Positions 3,272-47,249 of a stretch of 64,000 nucleotides of DNA are shown here, piece after piece. Where the stretch lies: assembly GCA_000961765.1 (NCBI GenBank), contig LADT01000005.1, positions 1 through 64,000 on the forward strand, in the 5' to 3' direction. Positions within the stretch are counted from its first letter, which is position 1; every line of letters starts with the position of its first letter. Both the position numbers and the translations under genes were made by a program. This stretch comes from Clostridiaceae bacterium BRH_c20a. GTDB lineage: Bacteria; Bacillota; Peptococcia; Peptococcales; BICA1-8. The notes beneath the pieces are model-generated. The model ran no database searches. It saw only the letters and a program-made list of their open reading frames with translations, and was not told the origin of the DNA.

Positions 3272-3279
3272 AAAATCAC

Positions 3280-3850: not shown

Positions 3851-3904
3851 CCGTGAGCGATAAAAGATACTTAATACTAATATGAGACCTTTGGGAGATT
3901 TTCT

Positions 3905-30196: not shown

Positions 30197-31842
30197 TATT
30201 TCGCCTCCTTATCTCCTGTTTTATAGAAGAAATATATTGCGATAATACTTACGGCTATGATAAAAAGTGAAGCAATGCTGGCTTCGTGAATCATCTCATC
30301 ATTGGCATACTCAAAAGCCTTAGTGGCTAATGTATCAAAATTAAAAGGCCGGAGAATTAAAGTTAGGGGTAATTCCTTTAAAATATCCACAAATACCAAA
30401 AGGAAACCGCTAATGACCGCTGGCTTAATCATAGGTAAATCTATTTTCCAAAAGGTTTCTGTAATATTCATCCCTAAAGTACGGGATGCCTCAAAAAAAC
30501 CTACCCCATTTTTCTCAAAGCCAGATTCTATAGAATTAAAGCCTATGGCTAAAAATCTTATAACATAGGCAAAAGTCAGCATCACCAGGCTGGTACTTAA
30601 AATTAGCTTTCCTGTCTCAGGGTTGAGAAATTTATAAAGCCAGTATAATCTATGATCTAAGTTTATAAAAAACACTATAACTGCAATAGCAATTACCGCA
30701 CCGGGTATGGAATAACCTAAAGTGGTAACCTTTGAGTAGATTTTTGCAGCTGTGCCGCCGCTAATCCGGCAGTAGTTAGCAATTACTACAGCTATTATGA
30801 CAATTAGCCCAGCTGCAAGTAAAGAAATAAATACGGTATTGGCCAATAAACTTAAAAATTTTGCATTAAGTATTTTTTCATAAGTTAATAAGCTCCAATA
30901 TATTAACTGCAGGGTAGGGATTAAGAACCCAAGACTAAAAACTATTAGGCAATAGCTAAATGCTATCATACCTTTGATACCTATCAGCTTTTGCCGAGTA
31001 ATAGGTCTAATCTTGGTGGTGGTAAAGCTGAATTTTTTTCTGCCCCGCAAAATTTTCTCCAAAAATAAAATTACAAAAACCATGAGTAATAAAACGGCTG
31101 AAAGCCGGATTGCGGAATCTATATCCCCAAAAGCAAACCAGGTTTGAAAGATAGCCGTGCTAAAAGTCGGTATCCCAAAATATTTAACCACACCGTAGTC
31201 ATTTAAAACCTCTAATATTACTAAGCTTGTCCCACCAACAATAGCAGCCCTTGAAACTGGTATTATTATATAGAAGAAAATTTCCAGGGGACTTCTGCCT
31301 AAAATCCTGGCATTTTCAATCAAAGCCGCTGACTGTTTTTCTAAGAATGCTTGGGTAATTGTGTAGACATAGGGAAACAGACACATTGTAAAAATAAATA
31401 TTGCACCTTTTTCTGACATAATATCAAAATATTTTTGATTTATTTGAAGGTGCAATGTACTCCGCAAAAATGTCTGGATTATACCGGTATAATTTAATAA
31501 TCCATTATAGGTATATGCCGCTATATATGGCGGTATAGCCAAAGATAAAACTAATGACCACTTGAAAAAGTTCCTCAAAGGAAAATCAAAAGCAGAGATT
31601 AGCCAGGATAGGCTTGTCCCTAAAAGAATTGTAAATATCCCAGCAAAGACTACCAGCTTTAGGGTGTTAATTATATAATCCTGGAGAAGAAATGTTTTAA
31701 TATGCTGCCAGTTTTCATTGGCAGGAGAAAATATGCCTCCTAATATATTTAGGTTTGGCAAAATTATTAACATTATGAAAATAAAGCTTAAAACTGACCA
31801 GGCATTTAAATTTTGCTTGACTTTATTATTTATTTTAATCAT
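30196..31842 (-). CDS. fbpB: Iron(III) ABC transporter permease (fused dimer type)
   Basis: 548 residues with about twelve helices in two homologous halves, each with a binding-protein-dependent permease EAA-type loop: ENARILGRSPLEIFFYIIIP (about 177-196) and FEASRTLGMNITETFWKIDLP (about 440-460). This is the FbpB/SfuB arrangement. It is separated from fbpA by a hairpin (31946-31967) and a GTGACTGG tract, so translation relative to FbpA is probably reduced by partial termination. Confidence 0.93.
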   Translation of the reverse strand: MIKINNKVKQNLNAWSVLSFIFIMLIILPNLNILGGIFSPANENWQHIKTFLLQDYIINTLKLVVFAGIFTILLGTSLSWLISAFDFPLRNFFKWSLVLSLAIPPYIAAYTYNGLLNYTGIIQTFLRSTLHLQINQKYFDIMSEKGAIFIFTMCLFPYVYTITQAFLEKQSAALIENARILGRSPLEIFFYIIIPVSRAAIVGGTSLVILEVLNDYGVVKYFGIPTFSTAIFQTWFAFGDIDSAIRLSAVLLLMVFVILFLEKILRGRKKFSFTTTKIRPITRQKLIGIKGMIAFSYCLIVFSLGFLIPTLQLIYWSLLTYEKILNAKFLSLLANTVFISLLAAGLIVIIAVVIANYCRISGGTAAKIYSKVTTLGYSIPGAVIAIAVIVFFINLDHRLYWLYKFLNPETGKLILSTSLVMLTFAYVIRFLAIGFNSIESGFEKNGVGFFEASRTLGMNITETFWKIDLPMIKPAVISGFLLVFVDILKELPLTLILRPFNFDTLATKAFEYANDEMIHEASIASLFIIAVSIIAIYFFYKTGDKEAK

Positions 31843-31895
31843 TTTTGCACTTCCTTTTAAAAAAGGGCTACGCCTGTTTAAGTTATTAGTAAATA

Positions 31896-31967
31896 GTGAC
31901 TGGTGACTGGTGACTGGTTAAAAATTATAACAAATTATGTTATGGAAAGGGCCCTAATGGGCCCTTT
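31896..31967 (-). terminator. fbpA-fbpB intercistronic hairpin and short repeat tract
   Basis: Stem AAAGGGCCC / GGGCCCTTT with a 4-nt loop (31946-31967), directly after the fbpA stop. It probably stabilises fbpA mRNA or partly terminates it. It is followed by GTGACTGG tandem units (31896-31919). Confidence 0.7.
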
Positions 31968-31968
31968 A

Positions 31969-33051
31969 TTATTTCCAACCAACTTCATTGAATATTTCTA
32001 CCGCTCTATTGTTATATTCACCTAGCTGGGATAGGTTGATTTTTTGAGGTTTAAAATCTCCCCAGGATTTTAACAGTTCAGAAGGCTCTACCTTAGGATT
32101 CACAGGATATTCAAAATTGGCCTGTGCAAACTGTTCTTGTGCCTTTGCATCTGATAAAAACTCCATAAGCTTAACAGCATTTTCTTTATTCTTGCTATAG
32201 TTAGTAATACCTATCCCGCTAACATTTATATGGGTCCCTGTTCCATCCTTGTCTGGGAAAAATACTCCTACATTTTGGGCTACCTTTACTTCTTCCGGAT
32301 TAGAAGATTCTAACATTTTACCTAGGTAATAAGTATTCATGATTGCTAAATCACCTTCTCCGGCCACAACCGCCGTAGCCTGATCCCGGTCATTACCTTT
32401 AGGCTCTCTGGCCAAATTAGCTACCATCCCCTTAGCCCATTCTTTTGCCTTATCCTCACCATGAATAGCAATAAATGAAGCTAGAAGTGACTGATTATAG
32501 ATATTTGATGATGATCTGGTTAGGATTTTACCCTGCCATTTAGAACTTGTTAAATCTTCATAAGTAGATAAACTAGCTGGATTTACTCTGTCTTTCGAGT
32601 ACACAATTACTCTGGCCCGTACAGTTAACCCAAACCATTTATTATCCTTGTCCTTTAAATTCTCGGGAATATTCTGCACTAATACATCACTTTCTACAGA
32701 CTGCAGTAAGCCCTGTTCCTTGGCTCTATGTAGCCTTCCTGCATCAGCTGTCATCAAAAGATCAGCTTCTGTATCTTTACCCTCTCTTGCTAATCTCTCT
32801 ATTAATTCATCAGAATTTCCTTTAACAACATTCACCTGAATTCCTGTTTCCTTAGTAAATAACTGGAATAACTGTTCATCAGTATCATAGTGCCTGTCCG
32901 TATAGAGATTTACAGCTTGTTTTGTTGTAGCTACCTTAACTTCCTCTGCTGCCTTAGTTTCTTTTTCCGAACTGGTACAACCTACAGTAAACAATAGGGA
33001 GAAAACTAACAGGAAACTAAGACCGATACTTTTCATACTTCTTTTCTTCAT
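31969..33051 (-). CDS. fbpA: Iron(III) ABC transporter substrate-binding lipoprotein
   Basis: 360 residues. A lipoprotein signal peptide (LLFTVGCTSSE, Cys about residue 25) is followed by a type II periplasmic-binding fold of the Fbp/FutA class: VNLYTDRHYDTDEQLFQLF, ADLLMTADAGRL, the Tyr-rich hinge region VARARVIVYSKD-like (TVRARVIVYSKD) and NTYYLGKML. Paired Tyr residues (MNTYYLG) match the ferric ligands of this class. AGGAGG precedes the ATG. A perfect Fur box covers the transcription start, so it is iron-repressed. Confidence 0.93.
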   Translation of the reverse strand: MKKRSMKSIGLSFLLVFSLLFTVGCTSSEKETKAAEEVKVATTKQAVNLYTDRHYDTDEQLFQLFTKETGIQVNVVKGNSDELIERLAREGKDTEADLLMTADAGRLHRAKEQGLLQSVESDVLVQNIPENLKDKDNKWFGLTVRARVIVYSKDRVNPASLSTYEDLTSSKWQGKILTRSSSNIYNQSLLASFIAIHGEDKAKEWAKGMVANLAREPKGNDRDQATAVVAGEGDLAIMNTYYLGKMLESSNPEEVKVAQNVGVFFPDKDGTGTHINVSGIGITNYSKNKENAVKLMEFLSDAKAQEQFAQANFEYPVNPKVEPSELLKSWGDFKPQKINLSQLGEYNNRAVEIFNEVGWK

Positions 33052-33326: not shown

Positions 33327-35198
33327 TTAAATCTGAAATAATTCATCAATCACAAAATCTAACTCTAATCTTTCTAAAGTTTCCTTAGTTGGAATGCCTG
33401 ATTTTATATCCCAACCACGTAGATGATAATATTCATTTAACATTTTTTCTAATTCTTCTGGTTTTGCAATCATTCCCGCTGATGGCCCTTCCGGTATTGG
33501 TTCATTCATAAAACGTGGTGGCAGAGTGTCTTCCTCCCTACCTTTTCCCTCACGAACATTAAAAGCTCGTTCTAAATTCCAAATACGATCTGCCAGTAGT
33601 TGTAAGCTGTCTTTATCAAAGTTTATTCCTGTTACCCCATTTAGCACTTCAATCATTGCATCACTAATTCCCACTCGACCAAAAGCACTTTCGATAACTG
33701 TACAATATCCTAAAGTATCTCTAATAACAGTAGATGACTGGATATTATAATTCAACTCAGGCTTTCCATCTATAGACTTTCTATCGAATTTTCCACTGCG
33801 TTCCTCAACATGACGCATATCCATATGGCTTCCGCCACGATTACTGACAGCATAACCTAATGTCATGCCCTTATAGCCTCTAGCGCTATGACCTGCTAAT
33901 TCGAGCCCTTTAACATGTATTGCAAAGTCCTCTGAACCCTGCCCAATTTTAGCTGCTGCCTTTTTTACACCATTTGCAAGTAACTCACCAATATCCTGCC
34001 TTAAAGCGATCTTACTTATTAGTTCAAGGAGTGCTTCCTTATTACCAAATTTCGGCTCTGCGTTAATACCAAATTCAGCACGAGGAACTAATTCTTTTTC
34101 ATAACACTCCATGGCAAATGCTATAGTAACTCCCGCAGAAATAGTATCCAAGCCTAAATCATTACACATGTTATTAGCGGCCATAATTACTGCAGGGTCA
34201 TCATTTTCACACAAAGATCCAAAACTATAAATAGTCTCATATTGTGGGCCTACCGATTCTAATCTTTTATATTTACCTTTTTTTATACTGCTTTTTTGTA
34301 GACATTTAACCGGACAGCCATAACATGCAAGATTTTTGTCAAAAACATTATCAGCAAAAGCATCCCCACCAATTTTATCTGCATTATCAAAAGTTTCCTG
34401 CTGCCAGTTTTTAGTACCAAGTATACCCGAAGCAGCATTACTACTGGTCGCTCCTGCTGTACCATACCTTTTCTGCTTAAGCATTAAAGTTTTATCATTA
34501 GTAACTTCTCTATAAAGGTTTTCTGCAACACCAGTAAGGAGATCGATATTATATATTTTTGGCGAATACTGTGTCCCGCGGACTGCAATAGCTTTTAGAT
34601 TTTTGGAACCCATTACTGCTCCAATTCCGCCGCGGCCTGCAGCATGAAAATTTTCTACTATAATAGCTGCATAGTTTACTAAGTTCTCTCCCCCTGGACC
34701 AATGACAGCAATTTTATATTGATCGTCTCCTAACTCCTCTTTAATTTTCCTTGTTGTTTCAAAAGTCCCTAACCCCCATAGGTTTTCTGCATCACGAATT
34801 TTAGCTATACCATTGTTAATATCTAGAAATACTGGTTTTGAGGAAAAGCCTTCAATAATTACCCCATCATACCCTGCAAATTTTAATTCTGCAGATAAAT
34901 GACCGCCAGAATAACTATCCATAAACCCCCCTGTTAGGGGCGATTTAGCAAAAAACCCTATTTTAGGAGAGGAAATAATAGGCGTGCCTGATAGGGGCCC
35001 GGTTGCTAATATTACCTTATTTTCAGGCCCCAAAGGATCAATACCCCCAGGTAACTCTTTAAACAAATATGCTGCCCCAAAGCCATTTCCTCCAACAAAT
35101 TTTTCGATAAACTTATCTTCTAGTTGTTCCTCAACAATTTTATTTTCCGTTAGATTAACTCTGAGAAATTTCCCAAGATAACCTCCATATCTTGTCAT
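33327..35198 (-). CDS. aor: Aldehyde:ferredoxin oxidoreductase (tungsten-type)
   Basis: 623 residues, full AOR length. The N-terminal pterin-binding domain begins YGGYLGKFLRVNLTENKIVE and contains SPLTGGFMDSYSGG and AGRGGIGAVMGSKNLKAIAV (second pterin contact). The [4Fe-4S] ligands are in CYGCPVKC (about residue 291) and a later Cys in LGYCTV. The family block LGLDTISAGVTIAFAMECYE is intact. Role: oxidation of aldehydes to acids with ferredoxin as acceptor, cytoplasmic, using a W- or Mo-bispterin. It is encoded with its own polyferredoxin and MoaD-like protein at the end of the sigma54-controlled island. It would therefore oxidise the semialdehyde from the GabT-like step. The substrate is inferred, not shown. 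Confidence 0.93.
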   Translation of the reverse strand: MTRYGGYLGKFLRVNLTENKIVEEQLEDKFIEKFVGGNGFGAAYLFKELPGGIDPLGPENKVILATGPLSGTPIISSPKIGFFAKSPLTGGFMDSYSGGHLSAELKFAGYDGVIIEGFSSKPVFLDINNGIAKIRDAENLWGLGTFETTRKIKEELGDDQYKIAVIGPGGENLVNYAAIIVENFHAAGRGGIGAVMGSKNLKAIAVRGTQYSPKIYNIDLLTGVAENLYREVTNDKTLMLKQKRYGTAGATSSNAASGILGTKNWQQETFDNADKIGGDAFADNVFDKNLACYGCPVKCLQKSSIKKGKYKRLESVGPQYETIYSFGSLCENDDPAVIMAANNMCNDLGLDTISAGVTIAFAMECYEKELVPRAEFGINAEPKFGNKEALLELISKIALRQDIGELLANGVKKAAAKIGQGSEDFAIHVKGLELAGHSARGYKGMTLGYAVSNRGGSHMDMRHVEERSGKFDRKSIDGKPELNYNIQSSTVIRDTLGYCTVIESAFGRVGISDAMIEVLNGVTGINFDKDSLQLLADRIWNLERAFNVREGKGREEDTLPPRFMNEPIPEGPSAGMIAKPEELEKMLNEYYHLRGWDIKSGIPTKETLERLELDFVIDELFQI

Positions 35199-35216: not shown

Positions 35217-35522
35217 TCAGCCGCCAACTCCAGGCAAAATTAACATAATTTCACTATTATCTTCAACAGGAAAACTCTTGTAATTTTGTGAATTCAACTC
35301 CACGCTGTTATTGTAAACTAAAAGGAATGATGTATATTTTCCATCTTCGTTCACAAGTAGATTTTTCACCTCAGGATAAGAATTAAATAAAAGTTGAATC
35401 ACGTCCTCTAATGAGGTATTTAACGGAATATCAAAAATTATCTCTTTCTTACCCGCTAAATTGGCCAATAAGTCGAAAAGTTTAATCTTTACCTTAATGT
35501 TCACAGCCATATCCTTCACCAT
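35217..35522 (-). CDS. MoaD/ThiS-like protein linked to AOR
   Basis: 101 residues at most, ending LPGVGG, the Gly-Gly tail needed for sulfur-carrier adenylation. The ubiquitin-like fold is suggested by VKIKLFDLLANLAGKKEIIFDIP at the start and NDNSEIMLILPGVGG-like end. MoaD supplies sulfur for molybdopterin; AOR-linked copies are thought to serve the tungsten enzyme specifically. The start is uncertain: the ATG at 35522 abuts the ferredoxin stop, but GTG at 35504 has AAGGA 7 nt upstream. A paralogue sits beside the second AOR at 62433. Confidence 0.85.
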   Translation of the reverse strand: MVKDMAVNIKVKIKLFDLLANLAGKKEIIFDIPLNTSLEDVIQLLFNSYPEVKNLLVNEDGKYTSFLLVYNNSVELNSQNYKSFPVEDNSEIMLILPGVGG

Positions 35523-35921
35523 TTAAACAAGATAAATGGCTTTTGCATCACATTTCTGCGAACAACTAAAATTCCCATTACATGTATCACATTTAAAAGC
35601 AACCTGTGTTTCAGGGTGGATTATTACTGCTTCAAATTTGCAAGCATCTACACATAGACCACACCCAATGCATAAATCCTCTTTCACTAAAATGGTTTCG
35701 GTATTAAGATCTTTATACATGGCACCCGTTGGGCAAGCATCAACACATTCCGGTTCTTTACAATGAAGACAAACAGTAATATTTGGTAAAGCCCATTTAC
35801 CAATATGACAAATAGTAATACGTGAATAATTAGGAGAAGTCAAACCCTTATGGTAGAATGCACATGTATTTTCACATAATCTACATCCGCTACATAGATC
35901 TTGGTTAATATTTAATTTCAT
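35523..35921 (-). CDS. Polyferredoxin (HycB-like) electron-transfer subunit of AOR
   Basis: 132 residues with 16 Cys in four groups: CSGCRLCENTC, CLHCKEPECVDACP, CIGCGLCVDAC and CDTCNGNFSCSQKC. This is the pattern of HycB/DmsB-type four-cluster proteins. It would pass electrons from the AOR to soluble ferredoxin or another acceptor. It overlaps or abuts the MoaD-like gene and lies directly upstream of the AOR pair. GGAAGGTG precedes the ATG. Confidence 0.9.
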   Translation of the reverse strand: MKLNINQDLCSGCRLCENTCAFYHKGLTSPNYSRITICHIGKWALPNITVCLHCKEPECVDACPTGAMYKDLNTETILVKEDLCIGCGLCVDACKFEAVIIHPETQVAFKCDTCNGNFSCSQKCDAKAIYLV

Positions 35922-35972: not shown

Positions 35973-36599
35973 CTATTTTTTTAGATTCTTGTTTAATATT
36001 TGCTTTGCTCGCTCCACATTAAAAATTCCACAATGGCACGGTTTAGCTATCTCTACAGCAGCTTTATCTATATCCCAAGTCCCTTTTTTTACCCGTTCAA
36101 CAGCTTGTTTAACTAACCTTTCCGAAACCATACCATGTCCACACATTGTTACAAGATTTAATACTGATTCATCAGGTAATGCCTCAACTTTTCCATAAAC
36201 ACCAATTGAAAGATTTATTGAGTGTGGTTTAATGTCATTTTCTCTGGAGAGTTTCACAATATTATCTATCAAACCACTTATAGTCACAGATAAACCATAG
36301 TCCCTCTTTTTCAACTCTGCCACTAAAAGTTTTACTTTTTCATAACTATCAAAAACACACCGGACCCTTGGTGTTTCTGAAAGAGTATTTTGAATCTTTT
36401 CTATAGTAGCTCCTCTAAAGATATTGCCACAATCATAGGAACCAATATTAACTGGACCTATTTCTTTAACAATATCCAAAATTTCTATCAATTTGCTTTT
36501 GGATTCTTTATGGTTAATATTCACAGCCGGAGTAATAAGTACAACGTAATCATTTTGCAATGAATCTATAGAACCCCTACGATGAAGTGAATGGGTCAT
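35973..36599 (-). CDS. Unrecognised CGH/CxCG protein, copy 1 (protein A)
   Basis: 208 residues, no family recognised. It is a clear paralogue of 42650-43288. Shared blocks: MTHSLHRRG start, GLSVTISG / GISVTVTG, KPHSINLSIGVYGK / KPHTVNLSLGYFGK, LPDES, VTMCGHGMV, and the C-terminal KPCHCGIFNVERA. The invariant Cys/His set (MCGH, then PCxCG) looks like a metal or cofactor site. It is cytoplasmic, with no signal or helix. AGGAGG precedes the ATG. In both copies it is paired with a two-cluster ferredoxin-domain protein, on its 5-prime side here and its 3-prime side in the other copy, suggesting an A-B complex. The reaction is unknown. Confidence 0.85.
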   Translation of the reverse strand: MTHSLHRRGSIDSLQNDYVVLITPAVNINHKESKSKLIEILDIVKEIGPVNIGSYDCGNIFRGATIEKIQNTLSETPRVRCVFDSYEKVKLLVAELKKRDYGLSVTISGLIDNIVKLSRENDIKPHSINLSIGVYGKVEALPDESVLNLVTMCGHGMVSERLVKQAVERVKKGTWDIDKAAVEIAKPCHCGIFNVERAKQILNKNLKK

Positions 36600-36621
36600 C
36601 TTTTTTTAATCCTCCTATCCA

Positions 36622-37338
36622 CTAGCTTATTTTTCTACCTAAACCCAAATTGATTTTAGCATTTGGTCGATAGTCGATCCCTAACTCTTTTAATGAATTT
36701 TTAATTGGAATTGTTCCATCTTCTTGTAAGGTTGTAATCATCCCTAATGAAAAAACTGTATCTATTTCCTTTGCTATTTCTAGAATTTTTAGCATGACAT
36801 CCTTTAAATCATCTTGAGGTATGGTAAACTCTACAATAGCTGAAATAACCCTTTGTAGTTTTACCTCATCTTTTATAGTTCCTTTTGTCTTATCCTCCAT
36901 TAGGTAAGTGAGAGGGTTATCTTTTTCATAGACTATCCCTAATTCTACTAATGCCATTGTGACTTTTTCGACTTCTGTGAAAGTTGAGCCACAACAAGGT
37001 CTTCCCATCTCTATGCAAATCCCTACTTCACCATCTTTAACTCTATTTGTAACATCATTGGTTTTAACTTCCTCTGTTCCACGCCCAGGAACTAGGGTAT
37101 CTTTGTGATAAGCCATTGGATCACTAAAATAGGTGCGAACGGAACGGGGATATTCATAAGCTACAGTATCTTGTTTTATTGCGCCTTTAGGACAGTCTGC
37201 AATTTTATAACAGATATTACACTCCTGGCAACTACTCTGATCAATTTCCGCCTTTTTACCATTTAAAGATATTGCCCCTCCCGGACAATACCATAAGCAC
37301 AAACCACAACCACTGCATAAATCTTTATCTATCTGCAT
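36622..37338 (-). CDS. Two-[4Fe-4S] ferredoxin-domain protein, copy 1 (protein B)
   Basis: 238 residues from the ATG at 37338 (GGAGGTG upstream). Two N-terminal ferredoxin motifs, CSGCGLCLWYCP and CQECNICYKIADCP (residues 8-51), then a unique C-terminal domain of about 180 residues. That domain has RSVRTYFSDPM, GRGTEEVKTNDVTNR, MGRPCCGSTFTEVEK and NAKINLGLGRKIS. The last three blocks are also in the paralogue 41935-42648. I do not recognise the C-terminal domain. The conserved GRGTEE-KTND motif suggests substrate or cofactor binding. It lies between the A protein and the GabT-like aminotransferase. Confidence 0.87.
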   Translation of the reverse strand: MQIDKDLCSGCGLCLWYCPGGAISLNGKKAEIDQSSCQECNICYKIADCPKGAIKQDTVAYEYPRSVRTYFSDPMAYHKDTLVPGRGTEEVKTNDVTNRVKDGEVGICIEMGRPCCGSTFTEVEKVTMALVELGIVYEKDNPLTYLMEDKTKGTIKDEVKLQRVISAIVEFTIPQDDLKDVMLKILEIAKEIDTVFSLGMITTLQEDGTIPIKNSLKELGIDYRPNAKINLGLGRKIS

Positions 37339-37382
37339 AAAGCACCTCCGGGTAAATATCATATTTCATATGTGTTTTATAA

Positions 37383-38729
37383 CTAAGCATTAAATACTAA
37401 TGCAATTGATTCTTCAAAGATATCTAAACCCTTCACCAGTTGTTCATCTTTTATGACCAGCGGTGGAAGAAAACGAATAACATTATTATATGTGCCTGCT
37501 TTTATTACGATTAATCCCCGTTGCAAACATAATTCCATTATTTTAGATATCTCGTTAGTTACCGGCTCCTTTGCCGCTTTGTCTTTGACAAATTCAACAG
37601 CATACATTGCTCCTCTACCCCTTACGTCACCTATAAAGGGGTATTTTTCCTTAATAACAGATAGTCTATTTAATAATATCTCCTCCAAATGATTTGCCCT
37701 TTGTGGGAGATTATACTTTTCCATCATCTCCATTACTTTAAGTGCAGCTGCACAGGCTACGGGATTTCCGGAGTATGTACTACCTATTCCTCCTTTATGC
37801 ACCGAATCTATTACATCGGCTTTAGCTACGACAGCAGAAAGAGGAAGCCCTGCAGCAATTGATTTAGCCGTAGTTAAAATATCTGGTTCAATACCGGAAT
37901 ACTCTATTGCAAAGAGCTTACCCGAGCGGCCCCAACCTGACTGAATTTCATCAGCAATAAGTACAAATCCATGTTCTTCACACAATTCTTTTACATATCT
38001 CAAATACTCATTGGGTAATACAATAAAGCCACCTTCACCCTGAATAGGTTCTAGAATAATCGCAGCAACATCTTCCGGAGCAACTTCAGTATCTAAAATC
38101 TTCTTAAGTGCCTTAGCGCACTCTAATGTACACCCAGGATATGTTTGCCCAAAGGAACAGCGGTAGCAGTATGGACTAGGAACCCGATAAATATCGGTTG
38201 CTAAAGGTCCAAAACCAACTTTATAGGGTTTTGCTTTACTAGTTAGTGTAGATGTTAACATAGTTCTGCCATGAAAAGAGTTCTCTAATGCTATAACACC
38301 CCTTCTGCCAGTATACTTCCTGGCAATTTTGACAGCATTTTCAACGGCTTCTGCCCCACTATTAACCAAGAAAGCTTTTTTAGGGGTATCCCCAGGTGTT
38401 ATTGTGCAAAGCTTCTCTGCAACTCTAACATAGGGTTCATGCAGCATGACAGATGATGTATGAATAAGTCTTTCGACCTGGTCTTTAATTGCATTGACTA
38501 CCTCAATTGGACAGCTTCCTACATTGAGAACTCCAATTCCTCCGGCAAAGTCTATAAATTCATTACCATCCACATCAGTAATTATTGCTCCCTTGGCCTC
38601 GGCAGCAAATAGTGGTGTAGCATTTGAAACTGACTCAGGTAAATATTTCTTTCTAAGTTCCATTAGCTCTTTACTTTTTGGACCGGGAATATCTCTGCTA
38701 GAGCTATCCGGGACAAGTGTTAAGGCCAT
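37383..38729 (-). CDS. gabT: Class III aminotransferase, GabT-like
   Basis: 448 residues from the ATG at 38729 (GGGGAG upstream). PLP enzyme: NSGAEAVENAVKIARKYTGR, FHGRTMLTSTLT, ADEIQSGWGRSGKLFA (Asp to PLP N1), TTAKSIAAGLPLSAV (Schiff-base Lys) and GGIGSTYSGNPVACAA. A Cys-rich insert PYCYRCSFGQTYPGCTLEC is typical of clostridial GabT. Expected reaction: 4-aminobutyrate (or another omega-amino acid) plus 2-oxoglutarate to semialdehyde plus glutamate. In this island it would sit between the ureohydrolase and the AOR. Confidence 0.9.
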   Translation of the reverse strand: MALTLVPDSSSRDIPGPKSKELMELRKKYLPESVSNATPLFAAEAKGAIITDVDGNEFIDFAGGIGVLNVGSCPIEVVNAIKDQVERLIHTSSVMLHEPYVRVAEKLCTITPGDTPKKAFLVNSGAEAVENAVKIARKYTGRRGVIALENSFHGRTMLTSTLTSKAKPYKVGFGPLATDIYRVPSPYCYRCSFGQTYPGCTLECAKALKKILDTEVAPEDVAAIILEPIQGEGGFIVLPNEYLRYVKELCEEHGFVLIADEIQSGWGRSGKLFAIEYSGIEPDILTTAKSIAAGLPLSAVVAKADVIDSVHKGGIGSTYSGNPVACAAALKVMEMMEKYNLPQRANHLEEILLNRLSVIKEKYPFIGDVRGRGAMYAVEFVKDKAAKEPVTNEISKIMELCLQRGLIVIKAGTYNNVIRFLPPLVIKDEQLVKGLDIFEESIALVFNA

Positions 38730-38805
38730 ATATGTCTCCCCTTTCATTTAATATATTCTAGGGCAATTATTTCTACACGCCTCAAGTACAGCTTGATTTT
38801 CATTA

Positions 38806-40314
38806 TTAATGGCCTGGGAAATTGCTTGTTTTATCTTTAGCAAATGAGATTAATTTTCCAATCCAGGGTGCAAGTAAAGATATTAATGCTAGTCCCAATA
38901 AAACAGCAGTTATTGGCCTTGTTAATAAATCAATAAAGTTATACTCAGTCATCATTAAAGCTCTTCTTAATGAAGTCTCCAAAATAGGACCTAATACTAA
39001 CCCTAGAATTACCGGAGTCGTAGGATATTTGTAATGACCCATGAAAAAACCTACTACTGCAAATACAAACATTAATAAAACACCGTTTACATCACCTAAG
39101 GCTAAAGACCCTATAATACAAAAAGACATGATTGATGTAGCCATGATGGGGTAGGGGATTTTTACAAGTTTAACAAAAAATCTAACAGCGAAAAGACCTC
39201 CTAAAACTACTACAAAGTTAGCAATAAACATACCTCCGAAAATTGAATAAACCAAATCACTATTATTAATAAACAGGAGGGGCCCTACTTTTAAACCATG
39301 AATTAAAAATGCACCGATTAAAACAGCAGTTGTTCCACTTCCGGGAATACCTAAACTCAATAGTGGAATCATTGCTGCTACTGCGGCAGCATTATTAGCT
39401 GCTTCAGGTGCAGCGATACCTTCTTGGATACCAGTACCAAACTTCTCCGGATGTTTGGAAAACCTTACTTCCTGGGTATAGCTAATAATTGATGCTGTAG
39501 TTGCACCTACACCAGGTAAAATGCCTATCCAGGTACCTATAACCGAACCGCGTAATATCGTCCATTTTAAAGCTAAAATCTCCTTAAGGCTCATTAATTT
39601 AGTTTTAACTTTTTCTGTATCGACATTTTCAACTGCTTCCAGCTCTTGCTTTTGTGAAACCTTATTAAATACTTCAGATGCCGCAAATAATCCTATTATA
39701 GCAGGTACAAAGGCTATACCACTTAACAAGGACTTGGATCCAAAGGTAAATCTTGTGACACCGGTTATGGCATCTATTCCAACTGTGGCAAGCAATAGAC
39801 CCACACAGGCTCCAATAAGGGATTTGATTTGGGAGTTAGTCCCGATACTGGACACACAGCTTAAACCTAGAACTGCCAATGCGAAGTATTCCGCTGGTCC
39901 GAACTGAAGTGCAACCTTTGCAAGCTGGGTGGAAAGGACAATAGTCACAATTACCGCTAATGTTCCTCCGATACTTGAGCTCATTATCGCGATACCAAGA
40001 GCTTTTCCTGCTTCTCCCCTCTGGGTCATGGGATAGCCATCAAGGGAAGTCATAACGGCCTCCGATGAACCCGGAACCTTAAATAAAATTGCAGTAATTG
40101 AACCACCAAAAACACCGCCAAGATAAAGCGAGGTTAAAAAGAGTAAAGCTTGCACGGGTGAAAAAGCATAAGTAATAGGTATCAATAAGGCCGTACCGGT
40201 AGTAGGGTCTAATCCTGGAACTGCACCAAAACAAATACCCACAAATACACCCATTAGTACAAAAATAAGGTTACTAGGGTCTAAGGCATTTGCAAAGCCT
40301 GATAATATCTCCAT
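38806..40314 (-). CDS. tctA: Tripartite tricarboxylate transporter, large membrane subunit TctA
   Basis: 502 residues, about twelve helices. Family motifs: GVFVGICFGAVPGLDPTTGTA at the N-terminus, GGVFGGSITAILFKVPGSSEAVMT (about 67-90), GILPGVGATTASIISY and GIPGSGTTAVLIGAF. Imports a carboxylate with the binding protein TctC and small subunit TctB, driven by an ion gradient. Order in the operon is tctC-tctB-tctA. Members of the family carry many organic acids, so the substrate is not predictable from sequence. The context suggests an amino or guanidino acid. Confidence 0.95.
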   Translation of the reverse strand: MEILSGFANALDPSNLIFVLMGVFVGICFGAVPGLDPTTGTALLIPITYAFSPVQALLFLTSLYLGGVFGGSITAILFKVPGSSEAVMTSLDGYPMTQRGEAGKALGIAIMSSSIGGTLAVIVTIVLSTQLAKVALQFGPAEYFALAVLGLSCVSSIGTNSQIKSLIGACVGLLLATVGIDAITGVTRFTFGSKSLLSGIAFVPAIIGLFAASEVFNKVSQKQELEAVENVDTEKVKTKLMSLKEILALKWTILRGSVIGTWIGILPGVGATTASIISYTQEVRFSKHPEKFGTGIQEGIAAPEAANNAAAVAAMIPLLSLGIPGSGTTAVLIGAFLIHGLKVGPLLFINNSDLVYSIFGGMFIANFVVVLGGLFAVRFFVKLVKIPYPIMATSIMSFCIIGSLALGDVNGVLLMFVFAVVGFFMGHYKYPTTPVILGLVLGPILETSLRRALMMTEYNFIDLLTRPITAVLLGLALISLLAPWIGKLISFAKDKTSNFPGH

Positions 40315-40331
40315 TTCCTCATCCCCTTAAA

Positions 40332-40817
40332 TTAATATAATAAAAGACTAAAGCTTCTAAATATTCCTATCCCCTTTGGTAATGGTAAGTACATTAATTT
40401 AATAAACAATATAAATAAAAGAAGTGTTAAAACCGAGGGAGTAAGTATTAAAATTTTCACTTGTCTCACACCCTGAACAAATAAAAACATACCTTGAAAA
40501 ACCAGTGTTGCTATAACAAAACCTACATATCTCATAATGAAGAAATACCCAAAGGAAACTACAAGAGCAAAGATAAACTTTTTATAGGATATTTTCTGGT
40601 TTTTATCTTCTTCCTGACTTACTTTCTTGATCATTTTTCTTATTTCAATTACTATGGCAAAAATTATTAAACCCATGAGAAATACCAAAACTATACGAGG
40701 CCAAAAGCCTGGCCCCATTACGTCATACTTAGAAATTTGTTTAAAGGAATAAGTCAGCTTATAGAAATATCCTGCTAATAAAAGCAGAAAAACATTTATA
40801 ACCAAATCTCCCCTCAA
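40332..40817 (-). CDS. tctB: Tripartite tricarboxylate transporter, small membrane subunit TctB
   Basis: 161 residues with four predicted helices and the family lead GPGFWPRIVLVFLM (about residues 35-48). The start is a TTG with GGGGGTG 5 nt upstream. It is located between tctC and tctA with short gaps, as is usual. Confidence 0.88.
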   Translation of the reverse strand: MRGDLVINVFLLLLAGYFYKLTYSFKQISKYDVMGPGFWPRIVLVFLMGLIIFAIVIEIRKMIKKVSQEEDKNQKISYKKFIFALVVSFGYFFIMRYVGFVIATLVFQGMFLFVQGVRQVKILILTPSVLTLLLFILFIKLMYLPLPKGIGIFRSFSLLLY

Positions 40818-40868
40818 TTCGTCACCCCCAATTTTAAAAGGTAGGCCGACTTATGCCGGCCACCCTAT

Positions 40869-41918
40869 TTATTTTACATGTCCTAACTTTTTCATTATTT
40901 CTTCATAAATTTTGTATTCTTTTTCCATTAACTTGTCAAAACCTTCAGAATTTAAATAGCCTGGTACTAAATCAAGCATCCTATCTTTGGCAAAGCTCTT
41001 ATATACTGAACTTTCTAATGCCTTTGTATATTCCTCTTCTAATTTCTTAACAATCTCTACCGGAGTCCCCTTTTTAACAGCTATACCTCTCCACATCATT
41101 GGCGGCATTTCATATCCTATATCACTTACACACTGAACATCCTTCAGGGCTTCAACCCTTTCTTCAGCAACAACCAATAGTGGCTGAATTTTCCCTTCTT
41201 GAATCATGGGGATAATAACTCCGGGTTCTTCATACATAACATCTATGTGACCGCCCAATAAAGCAGCATGCATTTCACTAGAACCTTCGAATGGAATATA
41301 TTTTACTTCTAATCCAGCTTGAGTCCAGAGATGGGCAGAAGCTACTTCATCAAAACTTGCAGCACCAGTACCTCCAAAGTTTACTTTACCAGGATTAGCC
41401 TTGGCATAATCCACAAATTCCTGCCAAGTCTTATAAGGAGCACCTGCCCTTGCCGAGATACCTCCTACATCAATATGAGCTTGAATAATTCCGGTTAGGT
41501 CTTTATAAGAAGTCTCAGTTCTACCAAGGATGGTATTTGTTAGGATGTCCGGAGTAATTCCAAATACTGTATACCCATCAGCAGGCTGCTGGAGAACATG
41601 TTCCATCGCAGTTACCGACGAACCTCCTGGCATATTGATTTCGATAATCTGGGCTTCCAAGGCCCTTCTTGCCGGCATATTGATGGTTCTACCGAAAATA
41701 TCACTACCACCGCCTGCACCCCAGCCAATAATATATTCTATTGTCCGGGAAGGATATTTTTCATCAACTTTAGGTTTTTCTTCTGTTTTTGGTTCTTCAG
41801 CCTTTGGTTCTTCAGCGGGCTTAGGGGTCTCTTGTTTAGCCTGCTGTCCGCAACCAACTATAAGTATGCTAATTGTTAATAAGATAATTAAAACCAGGGA
41901 TATGTTTCTTTTCATCAT
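40869..41918 (-). CDS. tctC: Tripartite tricarboxylate transporter substrate-binding lipoprotein TctC
   Basis: About 349 residues from tandem ATG codons at 41918/41915 (AAAGGAGG upstream); the reading to 41951 would overlap the previous gene. Lipoprotein signal with ILIVGCGQQAK, a Pro/Glu/Lys-rich linker of repeated EEPKAEEPK units, then the Bug/TctC fold: YPSRTIEYIIGWGAGGGSD, GINMPG-type loop (EINMPGGSSVTA) and FGGTGAASFDE. A family Asp binding the ligand amino group is not discernible by eye, so the ligand is open. Confidence 0.92.
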   Translation of the reverse strand: MMKRNISLVLIILLTISILIVGCGQQAKQETPKPAEEPKAEEPKTEEKPKVDEKYPSRTIEYIIGWGAGGGSDIFGRTINMPARRALEAQIIEINMPGGSSVTAMEHVLQQPADGYTVFGITPDILTNTILGRTETSYKDLTGIIQAHIDVGGISARAGAPYKTWQEFVDYAKANPGKVNFGGTGAASFDEVASAHLWTQAGLEVKYIPFEGSSEMHAALLGGHIDVMYEEPGVIIPMIQEGKIQPLLVVAEERVEALKDVQCVSDIGYEMPPMMWRGIAVKKGTPVEIVKKLEEEYTKALESSVYKSFAKDRMLDLVPGYLNSEGFDKLMEKEYKIYEEIMKKLGHVK

Positions 41919-41934
41919 TTCTACCTCCTTTAAA

Positions 41935-42648
41935 TTAGATCCTTTTCCCAAGACCTATATTAGTTTTGGCGCTTGGTTTAACAAAGTAACCTCGCTGTTC
42001 TAAAATAGGAATAACAGGTATACTTAAATCCTTTTCTACCTTGCAGATAATCCCAATAGAGAAAACAGTGTCAATATCCTTTGCTACTTCTTTAAGTTCA
42101 TCAACTACCTCTGGTACATTGGCAATCGGCACTAAAACCTCAATTACACAAGAAATTACTTTTTCATCTAACACCTCCTCTATTAAATCGCCTGTATTAA
42201 AGTCCTTCATTAAGTAACTTATTGGATTAAGCTTCTCAAACTCTACTCCCAATAAAGCTAATACCCGGGTTATTTTTTCTACATCTTTAAGACTACAGCC
42301 AACATTTGGTCTACCCACATCAACTGCAATACCTACATACTTAGTATCTTTAAAACGGTTTGTTACATCATTTGTTTTCATTTCTTCAGTACCGCGCCCT
42401 GAACACCCCGTCTCCTGAAAAATTGTTACCGGGTCACTAAAAATGCTACGGAGAGACCGAGGCCAAGGCAACTCAACGCATGGAATGAAAGCATTAGTCT
42501 CACAGACAGCCAAACGATGGCAAACTCCACATTCAGCACATAATGTTTGATTAATTATTGCCTTTTTATTTTCCATCTCTATTGCCTTCATAGGACAGAA
42601 TTTTATACACTTTGCACATCCTAAACACAATTCACTATTAATTTGCAT
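41935..42648 (-). CDS. Two-[4Fe-4S] ferredoxin-domain protein, copy 2 (protein B')
   Basis: 237 residues. Ferredoxin motifs CLGCAKCIKFCP and CAECGVCHRLAVCE (the second lacks the Pro) precede the same unknown domain as 36622-37338. Shared blocks: RSLRSIFSDP, GRGTEEMKTNDVTNR, VGRPNVGCSLKDVEKIT, NPISYLMKD and KTNIGLGKRI. Differences lie mainly in the linker and in MGRPCCGS versus VGRPNVGC. It follows the A' protein by 1 bp with AAGGAGG inside the end of that gene, so the two are tightly coupled. Confidence 0.87.
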   Translation of the reverse strand: MQINSELCLGCAKCIKFCPMKAIEMENKKAIINQTLCAECGVCHRLAVCETNAFIPCVELPWPRSLRSIFSDPVTIFQETGCSGRGTEEMKTNDVTNRFKDTKYVGIAVDVGRPNVGCSLKDVEKITRVLALLGVEFEKLNPISYLMKDFNTGDLIEEVLDEKVISCVIEVLVPIANVPEVVDELKEVAKDIDTVFSIGIICKVEKDLSIPVIPILEQRGYFVKPSAKTNIGLGKRI

Positions 42649-42649
42649 G

Positions 42650-43288
42650 TCAAGCTTCCTCCTTCCCCCTATAGCATCTTTCTAAAATACCTTCAGCCCT
42701 TTTAACATTAAAAATTCCACAGGTACAAGGTCTTGCTAAGTCTTGTGCAGCTTCCTTAGTGGTCATGATACCCTTTTCTACCCGTTTCATTATGTACTGT
42801 ACATGGTCTTTGCAAACCATACTATGTCCACACATTGTTACAATTTCTAATATGTCTTCGTCGGGCAACAATTCCTTTTTACCAAAATAGCCTAGGGAAA
42901 GGTTAACAGTATGAGGCTTAAGCTCAACATCCTGCATTACTTCAAATACATCATCCATATCCCCGGTTACAGTTACTGATATCCCCAAATCTGCTTCCTT
43001 CAGCTTATTTAATACAGCACCCAGACTATCTTTACTGGAAAAAACCGAATCCATATAGGCCTTATCAGTTGCATTTTCAATGATTTCTTCTATTTTTTTA
43101 CCAGTATAAATACCACCTTGGTTGTCATCACCAATATTATCCGGGTTTTCCGAGTACATTATCTTAAAAACTTCAACTAGTTTTTCTCTGGCATTTATAC
43201 TGTTGAATCCCTGTGCAGCCATGGACAATAGGACATAATCATCAGCCTTTTCATTATTTTTTCTATAGCGATGTAACGTATGTGTCAT
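42650..43288 (-). CDS. Unrecognised CGH/CxCG protein, copy 2 (protein A')
   Basis: 212 residues, paralogue of 35973-36599 with the same invariant MCGHSMV and RPCTCGIFNVKRA. It starts MTHTLHRYR, with GGGGGG 7 nt upstream. It lies between the U32-like gene and its B' partner. Whether A/B and A'/B' act on sequential intermediates or form one heterotetramer cannot be told. Confidence 0.85.
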   Translation of the reverse strand: MTHTLHRYRKNNEKADDYVLLSMAAQGFNSINAREKLVEVFKIMYSENPDNIGDDNQGGIYTGKKIEEIIENATDKAYMDSVFSSKDSLGAVLNKLKEADLGISVTVTGDMDDVFEVMQDVELKPHTVNLSLGYFGKKELLPDEDILEIVTMCGHSMVCKDHVQYIMKRVEKGIMTTKEAAQDLARPCTCGIFNVKRAEGILERCYRGKEEA

Positions 43289-43302: not shown

Positions 43303-44235
43303 TTATGGTTGCGGTATTGCTAAGTCGATGCCCCCAACAGGTGAGCATTTTATTTCCGGATTTTCTTTCTGGACCAGCTCCATAATTACACTTGCATTAC
43401 GCACCCTTTCCTTAATCTGATTTGCATGATATTCTTTTGAATTCCACGGCGCATAAATTTCATCTTCAGAAAAGCCTGGCTCAATCTTAAAGTAACAGGG
43501 TGAACAGATTCTAGCAATTTCTTCTGCTTCATAAAACCTGGCAAATCCACCCATGGCATTAACAATAGACATATATATATCAAGGGGTAATTTTACTGCA
43601 CTTCGTATTCCCGAGAGCATTGGTAATGTTAAGTCTGCTAGAGGATTAAAGCTATTGGCTCCTAGACTTTCAATAACCTTTGCACCTGCAGGATTAGCAT
43701 GTCCTGCAAAAACTGACACTTTAAATATTACATCTTTTGGAATTACCCCTTTATCCCTCAGATTATTCACAAGCCACATCAAACCTTCATCAGCTACTAA
43801 GAAACCCCTAATACCAGCATCTAGACACCTTTCAAGATCTTTAAGCCAATGCCGAATAGAATCAAATCCCCTAAGTCGCATACCTGATACTATCCCTTCA
43901 CGGGTAGCGATCTGCCTGCCAGTATCCCATGCTCTTCTGGGTCCTAGTGTCATAATAACTTCTATTTTAGCTTCATTAGCCAGCTTGGAAAACTGCCGCA
44001 ACTCTTCCTTTGTTAAAAAAGTAGCACCACCTACAGTTGCAATAATCCGGTGCACCGGAACCTCAAGCTTTTGTGATTCCTCCAATAATGTTTCTAGAGC
44101 AGATAATCTTTCTACACCTGCAATTTCAATACGGTAATGTCCCCCATCAGAAAATCGCAAAGGTGAGGATGGCAATTCATAATTATCCCGTAGAGGTAAT
44201 CCTAATTCTTCTAACGCCTTTTCTAAACCTTGCAT
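43303..44235 (-). CDS. TIM-barrel protein, tentatively peptidase U32-like
   Basis: 310 residues from the ATG at 44235 (GGAGTGA upstream). Alternating beta/alpha units run from YRIEIAGVERLSALETLLEE through VHRIIATVGGATFLTKEELR, GLMWLVNNLRDKG, IFKVSVFAGHANPAGAKVIE, SFNPLADLTLPMLSGIR to PCYFKIEPGF. Repeated Gly/His/Asp at strand ends (AGHANPAG) suggests an active barrel. I recall similar proteins being labelled U32 peptidase, but the classical U32 signature is not visible, so proteolysis is doubtful. It is the second gene of the sigma54 operon, 19 bp after the ureohydrolase. Confidence 0.7.
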   Translation of the reverse strand: MQGLEKALEELGLPLRDNYELPSSPLRFSDGGHYRIEIAGVERLSALETLLEESQKLEVPVHRIIATVGGATFLTKEELRQFSKLANEAKIEVIMTLGPRRAWDTGRQIATREGIVSGMRLRGFDSIRHWLKDLERCLDAGIRGFLVADEGLMWLVNNLRDKGVIPKDVIFKVSVFAGHANPAGAKVIESLGANSFNPLADLTLPMLSGIRSAVKLPLDIYMSIVNAMGGFARFYEAEEIARICSPCYFKIEPGFSEDEIYAPWNSKEYHANQIKERVRNASVIMELVQKENPEIKCSPVGGIDLAIPQP

Positions 44236-44254
44236 TAAAATCACTCCATTTCTT

Positions 44255-45196
44255 TTATTTAATAATAGCTCCCAAAAACTCAATTATTAGCCGTGATGCA
44301 GCCAGTGACGTGATACCAGTAGGGTCAAATAATGGATTGACCTCAACTAAATCAAAACCGACAATTTTTTTTGTGCTAGCTAATCCCTGTAATAATTTTT
44401 TAAGTTCTGTATAAGTAAGACCTTCAGCCTCCGGTGTCCCGGTACCAGGAGCTTCACTAACATTAAGTACATCAATATCAATTGTCACATAACAGTTATT
44501 CTTCATATAATCTAGGGAAGCCAAAACACTCTCTAAGCCTGCTTGTTTAAATTCCCCATAGCTTATGATTTGATTTCCTTGCTCTTTTGCCCAATAGTAA
44601 TCATCCTCAGAGGTACGAAGACCACGAATACCAACTGAAGCTACCTTTTCAACGTGCTCCATTTCCATAGCACGGCGAATAACACTACTGTGTCCGTGCT
44701 TAGCTCCCAATAAGGAGTCACGTAAATCTAGATGGGCATCCAGGTGAACAATATCTAAAGGGCCTTGGTTTTTAAACCCCTCAATACAGGGTATTGAAAT
44801 TGAATGGTCTCCGCCTAGAGCCACTGGAATTGCACCTTTCTTAATAATTTTTTCAACTATCTTAACTGTTTCCTTAAATGTGTATTCCGAGTTTACCGAA
44901 ATAACATCCACATCGCCACAATCCACTAAAACAGCATTTTCCAAAAACCTCTTTTTCAGATCAATATCCCAGTATCCCTTTTTAAGTAGGCTGGACTCAA
45001 AAAAACACAGCCTTGTTGATAAATCTCTAATAGACCTGGGTCCGAAACGTGCACCTGGACGATATCCCGCACTTGCATCAAATGGTACACCAAAGACTGC
45101 TGCATTAGCCTCCCAGACACCGTCTACATCCACAATTGGCACTTTGGCAAATGAAGATATACCAAAAAATGAGGTATTATGCTTTTGTTGCTCCAA
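44255..45196 (-). CDS. Ureohydrolase (agmatinase/guanidinobutyrase family)
   Basis: 313 residues starting at a TTG with GGAGGT 8 nt upstream. Di-manganese ligands are visible: GGDHSIS (His), DAHLDLRDS (Asp-x-His-x3-Asp) and TIDIDVLN (Asp-x-Asp). The third block reads DIDVLNVSEAPGTGTPEAEG; the usual family text is DIDxxDPxxAPGTGTP, so LN replaces the common LD. Role: hydrolysis of a guanidino compound (agmatine, guanidinobutyrate, guanidinopropionate or similar) to urea plus amine. First gene after the sigma54 promoter. With a GabT-like enzyme and AOR downstream, guanidinobutyrate or another guanidino acid is a better guess than agmatine. Confidence 0.9.
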   Translation of the reverse strand: MEQQKHNTSFFGISSFAKVPIVDVDGVWEANAAVFGVPFDASAGYRPGARFGPRSIRDLSTRLCFFESSLLKKGYWDIDLKKRFLENAVLVDCGDVDVISVNSEYTFKETVKIVEKIIKKGAIPVALGGDHSISIPCIEGFKNQGPLDIVHLDAHLDLRDSLLGAKHGHSSVIRRAMEMEHVEKVASVGIRGLRTSEDDYYWAKEQGNQIISYGEFKQAGLESVLASLDYMKNNCYVTIDIDVLNVSEAPGTGTPEAEGLTYTELKKLLQGLASTKKIVGFDLVEVNPLFDPTGITSLAASRLIIEFLGAIIK

Positions 45197-45440: not shown

Positions 45441-47249
45441 TCAATTATCTTTGTATAGGATTGCTTTAGCATTTTTTCTTTTTTGTTTTAATTTTCTATA
45501 AAGTGTTGATAAATCTATACCTAATGCAGCAGCAGCATTTTTTTTACCTGCTAAGGAATCACCGTAAATTTTTAAAGCTTTTTCAATCATTGTTTCTTCT
45601 ATTTGGGCTAAAGGTAATATTTTACTATTTAACAATATGCCTGTCTCCACATTTTTCGAGTAATTAAGGATACGGTGCGGCAGGCTAGAGGCTTCTATTT
45701 TGACCTTAGTCTCCATGTTTATTGCATACTCTACTGCATTTTCTAATTCCCTTATATTTCCTGTCCAATTATACTCTTTTAAAAAATTTACGGCTTGACT
45801 AGTAAATCCTATGATTTGTTCTTTGTTTAAAACAAACTTATACTTATTAAGAAAATGTTCCACCAAAGGTTCAATATCCTCAATTCTTTCCCGCAAAGGG
45901 GGTATGAAAAGGGGAATAACATTTAGTCTAAAAAAGAGATCTTCTCTAAATTCCTTATTTTTAACCATTTCTTCAAGATTCCGGTTAGTTGCAGCAATAA
46001 TACGAACATCGATAGAAACTGGTTTAATCCCCCCCACTCTTTCGACTTCCCTTTCTTGCAAAACCCTTAAAAGCTTTGCTTGTAAATACAGATGCATATC
46101 TCCAATTTCATCAAGAAATATTGTTCCTCCATTGGCTAATTCAAACTTCCCAGGTTTGCCTTTTTTCTTGGCACCAGTAAATGCTCCCTCTTCATAACCG
46201 AATAATTCACTTTCTAAAAGAGCCTCCGGTATTGCAGAACAATTTATTGTAATAAATGGTCCTTCCTTCCTCGTCCCCTCAAAGTGGAGAGCACGGGCTA
46301 TCAGCTCCTTCCCTGTTCCACTTTCGCCTTGAATTAGTACTGTAGAACTGCTTTTAGATAAAACACGAAGCTTATTTTTCAAATGTTTCATAATAGTATT
46401 ACTTGTAATAATTTCATCAAGGGAGTGCTGGCCCTGATAAGAGCTTATTTCATACACAAATTTATTAACATCCCGCATATCCCTAAAACTTATAACAGCC
46501 CCTATAACTTTTCCTTCTTTTTTCATCGTTCTAGCTGAACTCATCACATAAATTGTTTTTCCCGCAATTTCTAAGGGTATTTCTCGATCCGTATATCCAT
46601 TTCCTGAAATCAAGACTTCTTTTATGGGAATATTAGCAATAATGTCCTCAATTTTAGTGGTATCTGATTGGGAATAGTAAACTTCGAATAATTTTGCAGC
46701 AGTTTTATTGTACTGCAAAACTTTTCCATTATTATCTACTGCAATTAACCCTTCATTAACACAATCCAAGATATTCTCTAATTTATTTACCAAAGCAGAT
46801 AATTGTTGAACTAATTCGTGTTCAGCTAATTTACTCTTTACTAAATCAGATATTTTTTCAAGAAAGGTTTGAAGACCTGGGAGATTTCTCAAGAGGGATT
46901 CACGCTGTGATTCACTAAAAGCAGTAAGACCAATTACCCCTAACACCTGATTATTTAGGATAATAGGACAGTTAATATTTGCTTGTTCAGGGCAAGTACC
47001 ACAAAGATGACATGGCTGGCATAAGTCATGATATCCTGGTCTATCATTTACAATTACACACTTCTTTTCCATTGCCTCCTTGATAACATAACCTCTGACC
47101 TTTTGCCCGATTGAGTTATGAACTCCTCCCCCAGTTGTAGCAACCACAACTAAATCATTATCATAGATAATCACTTCGATATCAAGTACAGCAGCTATTG
47201 CATCCGCAATTTTTTGGATATCTTCTCTGCTTTCACTTAGATAAGACAT
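45441..47249 (-). CDS. Sigma54-dependent enhancer-binding activator with Cys-rich sensor
   Basis: 602 residues. The N-terminal sensor (about 1-140) contains CQPCHLCGTCPEQANINCP, five Cys close together that could bind metal or an Fe-S cluster. A PAS domain follows (about 158-270, ILDCVNEGLIAVDNNGKVLQ). The AAA+ domain (about 285-520) has GESGTGKELIARALH, GAFTGA (sigma54 contact) and GGTIFLDEIGDMH. A Fis-type HTH (KKNAAAALGIDLSTLYRKL) ends the protein. GGAGG precedes the ATG. It lies directly upstream of the operon it most probably activates. The signal may be the substrate or the redox state. Confidence 0.95.
   Translation of the reverse strand: MSYLSESREDIQKIADAIAAVLDIEVIIYDNDLVVVATTGGGVHNSIGQKVRGYVIKEAMEKKCVIVNDRPGYHDLCQPCHLCGTCPEQANINCPIILNNQVLGVIGLTAFSESQRESLLRNLPGLQTFLEKISDLVKSKLAEHELVQQLSALVNKLENILDCVNEGLIAVDNNGKVLQYNKTAAKLFEVYYSQSDTTKIEDIIANIPIKEVLISGNGYTDREIPLEIAGKTIYVMSSARTMKKEGKVIGAVISFRDMRDVNKFVYEISSYQGQHSLDEIITSNTIMKHLKNKLRVLSKSSSTVLIQGESGTGKELIARALHFEGTRKEGPFITINCSAIPEALLESELFGYEEGAFTGAKKKGKPGKFELANGGTIFLDEIGDMHLYLQAKLLRVLQEREVERVGGIKPVSIDVRIIAATNRNLEEMVKNKEFREDLFFRLNVIPLFIPPLRERIEDIEPLVEHFLNKYKFVLNKEQIIGFTSQAVNFLKEYNWTGNIRELENAVEYAINMETKVKIEASSLPHRILNYSKNVETGILLNSKILPLAQIEETMIEKALKIYGDSLAGKKNAAAALGIDLSTLYRKLKQKRKNAKAILYKDN

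Follow-up and report, generated by a model that had tools for sequence, protein, structure and literature searches.

Two neighbouring gene pairs in the window, which is the whole 64,000-nucleotide stretch of DNA that was analysed, encode paralogous copies of a two-protein system, A/B, that we take to be new at the level of the protein system; the reaction may prove to be an ordinary one. A/B is an unannotated putative enzyme system, spread over hundreds of anaerobes, that recurs in the organic-acid operons of organisms as far apart as Lokiarchaeota and the Clostridia of gut and sediment. It is quite possible, though somewhat short of an even chance, that A and B together constitute a two-subunit, ferredoxin-coupled, substrate-specific Fe-S enzyme, which acts early in the anaerobic breakdown of imported carboxylates. 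These would enter through the adjacent transporter and are probably hydroxy- or dicarboxylates.

The two pairs and the genes around them are as follows.

33327-35198, minus strand: aldehyde ferredoxin oxidoreductase (AOR), the final gene of the run (PF01314/PF02730)
35217-35522, minus strand: MoaD-like small protein with a GVGG C-terminus (ORF; family assigned by eye)
35523-35921, minus strand: AOR-associated polyferredoxin-type electron carrier (Fer4 family matches)
35973-36599, minus strand: protein A of pair 1 (ORF, 208 residues)
36622-37338, minus strand: protein B of pair 1 (ORF, 238 residues)
37383-38747, minus strand: class III aminotransferase of the 4-aminobutyrate transaminase type (PF00202; TIGR00700 above cut-off)
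38806-41951, minus strand: tripartite tricarboxylate transporter (TTT), with ORFs for TctA (38806-40314), TctB (40332-40817) and TctC (40869-41951) homologous to the Tct proteins beside other A/B pairs
41935-42648, minus strand: protein B' of pair 2 (ORF, 237 residues)
42650-43288, minus strand: protein A' of pair 2 (ORF, 212 residues), transcribed ahead of B'
44255-45196, minus strand: arginase/agmatinase-family amidinohydrolase (PF00491, TIGR01230)
45441-47249, minus strand: sigma-54 activator with a PAS domain and PrdR-type resemblance (PF00158; NF041552 below cut-off)

The first-pass annotation had described two paralogous pairs that flank a transporter and an aminotransferase and are inverted in gene order, and this description holds in full. 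All four ORFs were confirmed on the minus strand; TctC, TctB, TctA and the class III aminotransferase are located between the pairs, and transcription runs from B to A in pair 1 and from A' to B' in pair 2. B and B' share 44% identity, A and A' about 38-40%. An in-frame ATG upstream could lengthen the ORF of B to 37362; the start used in relatives is 37338.

Outside the pairs, the AOR set lies on one side, and the arginase-family enzyme, a 326-residue ORF and the sigma-54 activator, which is the probable regulator of the operon, lie on the other. The AOR shares 55-56% identity (BLAST) with AORs adjoining other A/B pairs, and the set of Fe-S protein, AOR and MoaD-like protein is also found beside other pairs. 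The 326-residue ORF (43303-44283), upstream of A', exists in one copy in the host genome; nothing in Pfam, NCBIfam or the PDB matched it above noise, and a search of the other A/B loci turned up no homologue. An ABC transporter operon of the iron(III) type (29516-33051) follows downstream of the AOR set; its ATPase, permease and binding protein were assigned by eye.

Protein B is composed of an N-terminal 2[4Fe-4S] ferredoxin domain, a GRGTEEVKTNDV linker motif and a C-terminal alpha/beta domain ending in KINLGLGR (AF2 model pLDDT 88.8, pTM 0.85). Two four-Cys motifs and a significant match to a curated Fer4 model place its N-terminus among the 2[4Fe-4S] ferredoxins. Wherever they are covered in 73 sequences, the eight cluster Cys, Arg86, Thr88, Glu90, Lys92, Asn94, Gly112, Arg113, Pro114, Pro142, Ser166, Glu170 and Phe196 are invariant; Lys228, Asn230 and Gly232 are invariant in 72 sequences. 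Among the motifs noted previously for B, the eight ferredoxin Cys, GRGTxExKxN, GRP and KxNxGxG are kept family-wide, whereas the second Asn of VTNR is not universal.

Protein A consists of an alpha/beta domain (residues ~1-137) that begins with MTHSLHR, followed by a helical domain that contains Cys153-Gly-His155 and Cys188-x-Cys190 (AF2 model pLDDT 93.4, pTM 0.89). Cys153 and His155 are invariant in 66 sequences, and Cys188, Cys190 and Asn194 are present in every sequence that covers them. CGH and CxC, together with a downstream Asn and Arg, are conserved across a wide family, but the first Pro of the proposed P-C-x-C-G motif is not universal. In five Desulfosporosinus/Gracilibacter loci, the A protein of a second pair ends at residue 138-140 and has no CGH/CxC domain (A-short); a full-length A/B pair adjoins in the same region, and no separate copy of the Cys/His domain was found when looked for nearby. 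The existence of A-short indicates that the Cys/His domain is separable. It is plausible that A is a metal-dependent subunit: its three Cys and one His are invariant, but the C-terminal helical domain in which they are located is one that a conserved variant of A does without.

A always starts at the same place. All of the 116 distinct sequences (116 of 116) have a start codon (ATG in 95, GTG in 10, TTG in 5, ATA in 3, ATT in 2 and CTG in 1) immediately in front of (T/S)-H-(S/T/A)-L-(H/Y)-R, and 99% of the starts have a ribosome-site-like stretch. The second residue is Thr in 104 of these sequences and Ser in the other 12; among the 46 non-redundant representatives, 43 have Thr and 3 have Ser. 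When Thr or Ser follows the initiator Met, the Met is normally removed, leaving a free N-terminal Thr or Ser. As a control, we analysed B, which also usually starts seven residues ahead of its first Cys, with variable residues. A fixed start is therefore nothing special in itself; it is only the invariance of residues 2-7 at that start that is unusual in A. Five lokiarchaeal A genes (in L050, L058, L068, L071 and L076) apparently begin at ATA or ATT; four of the five have an in-frame stop 2-4 codons upstream and no alternative start in the interval, and a standard ORF caller has consequently shortened these genes.

Family and fold searches agree with the earlier remark that neither A nor the C-terminal domain of B belongs to a recognised family. 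For A, no Pfam or NCBIfam match was obtained in scans of the single sequence or of 66 members, and profile search gave no PDB sequence match. Matches of A members to methanogenesis marker 8/DUF2099, urocanase and SHOCT-like families were rejected as single-member or short-helix noise. For B, the Fer4-type models match only the first ~60 residues, and no family was found for the remainder. Neither model has a fold match in the PDB at E <= 1e-3, which leaves no basis for a catalytic analogy. The best Foldseek matches of B are to its ferredoxin part; other, weak ones are PII, ACT and ferredoxin-like plaits. Domain 1 of A and the C-terminal domain of B have an equal order of elements and similar endings (NLSLG and NLGLG), but profile comparison gives no support for their homology. 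Beyond the ferredoxin domain, Pfam, NCBIfam and PDB sequence and fold searches revealed no similarity to any characterised pair with an assigned function. No work on the A/B pair was found in open-licence papers; other journals may hold some.

The host genome contains ten B and ten A genes, and every B adjoins an A. Eight of the ten pairs sit with TctABC, TAXI-TRAP or DctPQM, and one copy (on contig C74) has no catabolic genes alongside. On two other host contigs, C73 (L023) and C26 (L024), the A/B pairs are 95-99% identical within different operons, with a TRAP transporter and a glycyl radical enzyme on the former and beta-oxidation genes, a TTT and PdxA on the latter; either the pair was duplicated recently, or the near-identity was produced by the assembly. 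In a 149-genome sample of the phylum, the A family is present in nine genomes, mostly in several copies, with nine copies in one closed genome. The numbers of A and B genes are equal in ten related genomes, except for one degraded B, one B that was recovered in two pieces and a surplus A fragment. At L012:1102-1488, an A fragment truncated at its N-terminus lies directly ahead of an intact B-A pair and is followed by an amidohydrolase-like gene.

A search of other, unannotated genomes with the B alignment yielded at least 483 related stretches. Given these and the ten pairs of the host genome, the pairing is not due to chance. From this search 75 loci, some of them from related genomes, were kept. 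The bacterial ones belong to Bacillota, Synergistales, Chloroflexi, Deltaproteobacteria, Bacteroidales and Aminicenantes, and the archaeal ones to Lokiarchaeota, Helarchaeota, Bathyarchaeota, Jordarchaeia and Desulfurococcaceae. A adjoins B in nearly all kept loci. The usual order is B-A, observed in 107 pairs. The gap between the two genes has a median of 5 bp and is at most 30 bp in 102 of the 107, and 22 overlap. The reversed order occurs in pair 2 of the window and, beyond the window, at least in L085 and L086; pair 2 and L085 cluster together in the tree. One B-A fusion (L040) is only apparent and results from a reading-frame slip.

The distance matrices of A and B correlate with r = 0.85 over 70 pairs, compared to a maximum of 0.13 in 1000 shuffles. 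Among the ten paralogues of the host genome r is 0.97; as all these copies reside in one genome, the species tree cannot explain the mirroring. Taken together, the matched copy number, the coupling and the mirrored trees indicate that A and B likely form a physical complex. Of the Fe-S complex suggested by the first-pass annotation, the data support a co-evolving unit, as seen in the 1:1 copies, adjacency, translational coupling and mirrored trees, and B carries both of its [4Fe-4S] motifs complete.

The gene neighbourhoods point to organic acids. Within 4.5 kb of the pairs versus further out, we counted 24 versus 0 for TctA, 15 versus 0 for TctB, 26 versus 4 for TctC, 14 versus 0 for AOR, 13 versus 0 for MFS transporters and 11 versus 0 for Ldh2; p-values for this enrichment are generous, owing to the related genomes among the 75 loci, and the neighbour clusters were named partly by eye, with spot checks in Pfam. 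A transporter, dehydrogenase or AOR of the enriched clusters is present in 55 of 72 loci. Minimal operons, with few further genes, include GntR-B-A-TctC-PdxA-TctB-TctA (L111), B-A-TctCBA (L118) and B-A with a 2HCT-family transporter (L117; PF03390, E = 9.5e-136). Other loci add DapA, HpcH/HpaI, FAH, PanB, glycerate kinase, RraA, Ldh2, HIBADH, M20, OYE, OCD or D-serine-dehydratase-type enzymes. The common theme of the loci is the uptake and breakdown of carboxylates, and the enzymes common to them are A-B. In L055, L114 and L115, the pairs adjoin a short CO-dehydrogenase/prismane-family protein (PF03063), a CooF-like Fe-S protein, an FAD oxidoreductase and a TTT. L108 carries a LarB-like gene (AIR carboxylase domain; 3165-3932) and an IlvD-like gene a few kb from two A/B pairs.

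If A/B is a ferredoxin-coupled enzyme, A and B would bind each other, and the ferredoxin domain of B would deliver low-potential electrons or remove them. The substrate site would be located where the N-terminal alpha/beta domain of A meets the C-terminal domain of B. To this site A would contribute its fixed (Thr/Ser)-His-x-Leu-His-Arg N-terminus, and the invariant Arg, Glu, Lys and Asn of B would be suited to binding a carboxylate and to acid-base chemistry. A metal or a cluster may sit in the Cys3-His domain of A and would aid most but not all versions of the enzyme. The product, a hydroxy- or keto-acid, would pass to the neighbouring HIBADH, Ldh2, PdxA or ADH, and often to an aldolase or AOR. 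As a first guess, the reaction would be a redox conversion of a (hydroxy)carboxylate coupled to ferredoxin, such as a reductive elimination or a C=C reduction, with one paralogue per substrate.

Several observations favour such an enzyme. The invariant residues are shared despite mixed substrates, which suggests one chemistry with changing specificity; the strict conservation of the ferredoxin Cys argues for electron transfer, and the alcohol dehydrogenases next door argue that A-B makes or consumes a hydroxyacid. With up to ten pairs per genome beside organic-acid genes, and with recurrence in anaerobic bacteria and archaea, the step is probably an undescribed one of organic-acid metabolism. 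However, the pairs differ widely in the types of substrate that their surroundings suggest, A-short lacks the Cys3-His domain, the copy on C74 has no catabolic neighbours, and the weak fold matches include PII/ACT regulators. In its strongest form, the proposal would make A/B a new class of ferredoxin-driven carboxylate-converting enzymes in bacteria and Asgard archaea, with about ten specificities in one cell and an active site in which a free N-terminal Thr or Ser and the next His, both held at the start of the chain in every member, lie beside an Fe-S or metal centre; this form we hold to be rather unlikely. To our knowledge, such N-terminal chemistry beside an Fe-S or metal centre occurs in no carboxylate lyase or reductase.

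A/B could instead be a redox-neutral Fe-S hydro-lyase, isomerase or epimerase, which we also regard as unlikely. The three Cys of A would then hold an open-site [4Fe-4S] cluster that binds the substrate hydroxyl, as in dehydratases of the aconitase and class I fumarase types, and the ferredoxin part would merely keep the cluster reduced or active. The exact set of three invariant Cys and one His in A would fit this role, and so would the DapA- and HpcH-type aldolases, FAH hydrolase and dehydrogenases, which normally act downstream of a sugar-acid or hydroxyacid dehydratase; a known dehydratase is often absent close to those loci. On the other hand, the eight ferredoxin Cys are kept without exception where covered, which is stricter than a maintenance role suggests, the conserved A-short has no Cys domain, and IlvD dehydratases are already present in a few loci.

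Less probable still is a regulatory module that senses ligand and redox state. B would provide a PII/ACT-like small-molecule sensor with its C-terminal domain and A another with its N-terminal domain, and these would control the adjacent transporter or enzymes much as GlnK controls AmtB. Outside the ferredoxin part, the sole fold similarities are weak ones to PII, ACT and ferredoxin-like plaits. A transporter adjoins the pair in 40 of 72 loci and is at times its only companion (L118). But these fold matches have E-values above 1e-3, many pairs have no transporter nearby, and two or three pairs per operon occur; moreover, Arg, Glu, Lys, Asn and His are strictly invariant across paralogues that would have to sense different ligands. 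It is improbable that A/B has no substrate of its own and serves solely to carry electrons, as a carrier or adaptor between the ferredoxin pool and the AORs and NAD-dependent dehydrogenases: such a role would account for the 2[4Fe-4S] domain of B and for the AOR or its Fe-S partner near the pair in 13 of 72 loci and in the window, but it leaves A and the one divergent paralogue per operon unexplained, the AOR of the window has its own Fe-S partner gene (35523-35921), and most pairs have no AOR nearby, which rules out partnership with AOR as a general function.

At present the pair is annotated as a ferredoxin and a hypothetical protein, and the pathways of these operons are consequently read with a step missing. 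The closed genome with nine pairs and the small operons of pair, regulator and transporter make the function directly testable.

Compared to known systems, A/B is similar in parts only. PII, ACT and ferredoxin-like plaits (GlnK, the ACT domain of aspartate kinase, SbtB) resemble A and B weakly in Foldseek, and their beta-alpha-beta-beta-alpha-beta order is predicted in residues 18-108 of A and 104-201 of B; however, there is no Pfam or NCBIfam match to these families, the Foldseek E-values exceed 1e-3 with TM-scores of ~0.2-0.3 on the query, and the conserved residues are different. Class I fumarase/tartrate dehydratase and aconitase are three-Cys [4Fe-4S] hydro-lyases, to which A/B is akin in having three invariant Cys in one subunit, a two-subunit layout and a hydroxycarboxylate setting. 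It differs from them in its CxC spacing and its extra ferredoxin domain, and neither homology (Pfam scans, PDB profile search) nor fold similarity of A to fumarase I, aconitase or serine dehydratase was found. The 6-hydroxynicotinate reductase of Eubacterium barkeri is ferredoxin-dependent and belongs to an anaerobic catabolic cluster with a HIBADH-type dehydrogenase; we take it as a lead only. No NCBIfam model matched A or B beyond the ferredoxin domain, and in open-licence papers we found no description of the Eubacterium enzyme under this name. Although the remaining 175 residues of B and the whole of A have no counterpart in them, the Fer4-clan 2[4Fe-4S] ferredoxin domains (HydB, RnfB, HdrA, HgcB) are like residues ~1-60 of B, with two complete four-Cys motifs, a Pfam E-value of 4e-10 and a Foldseek probability of 1.0.
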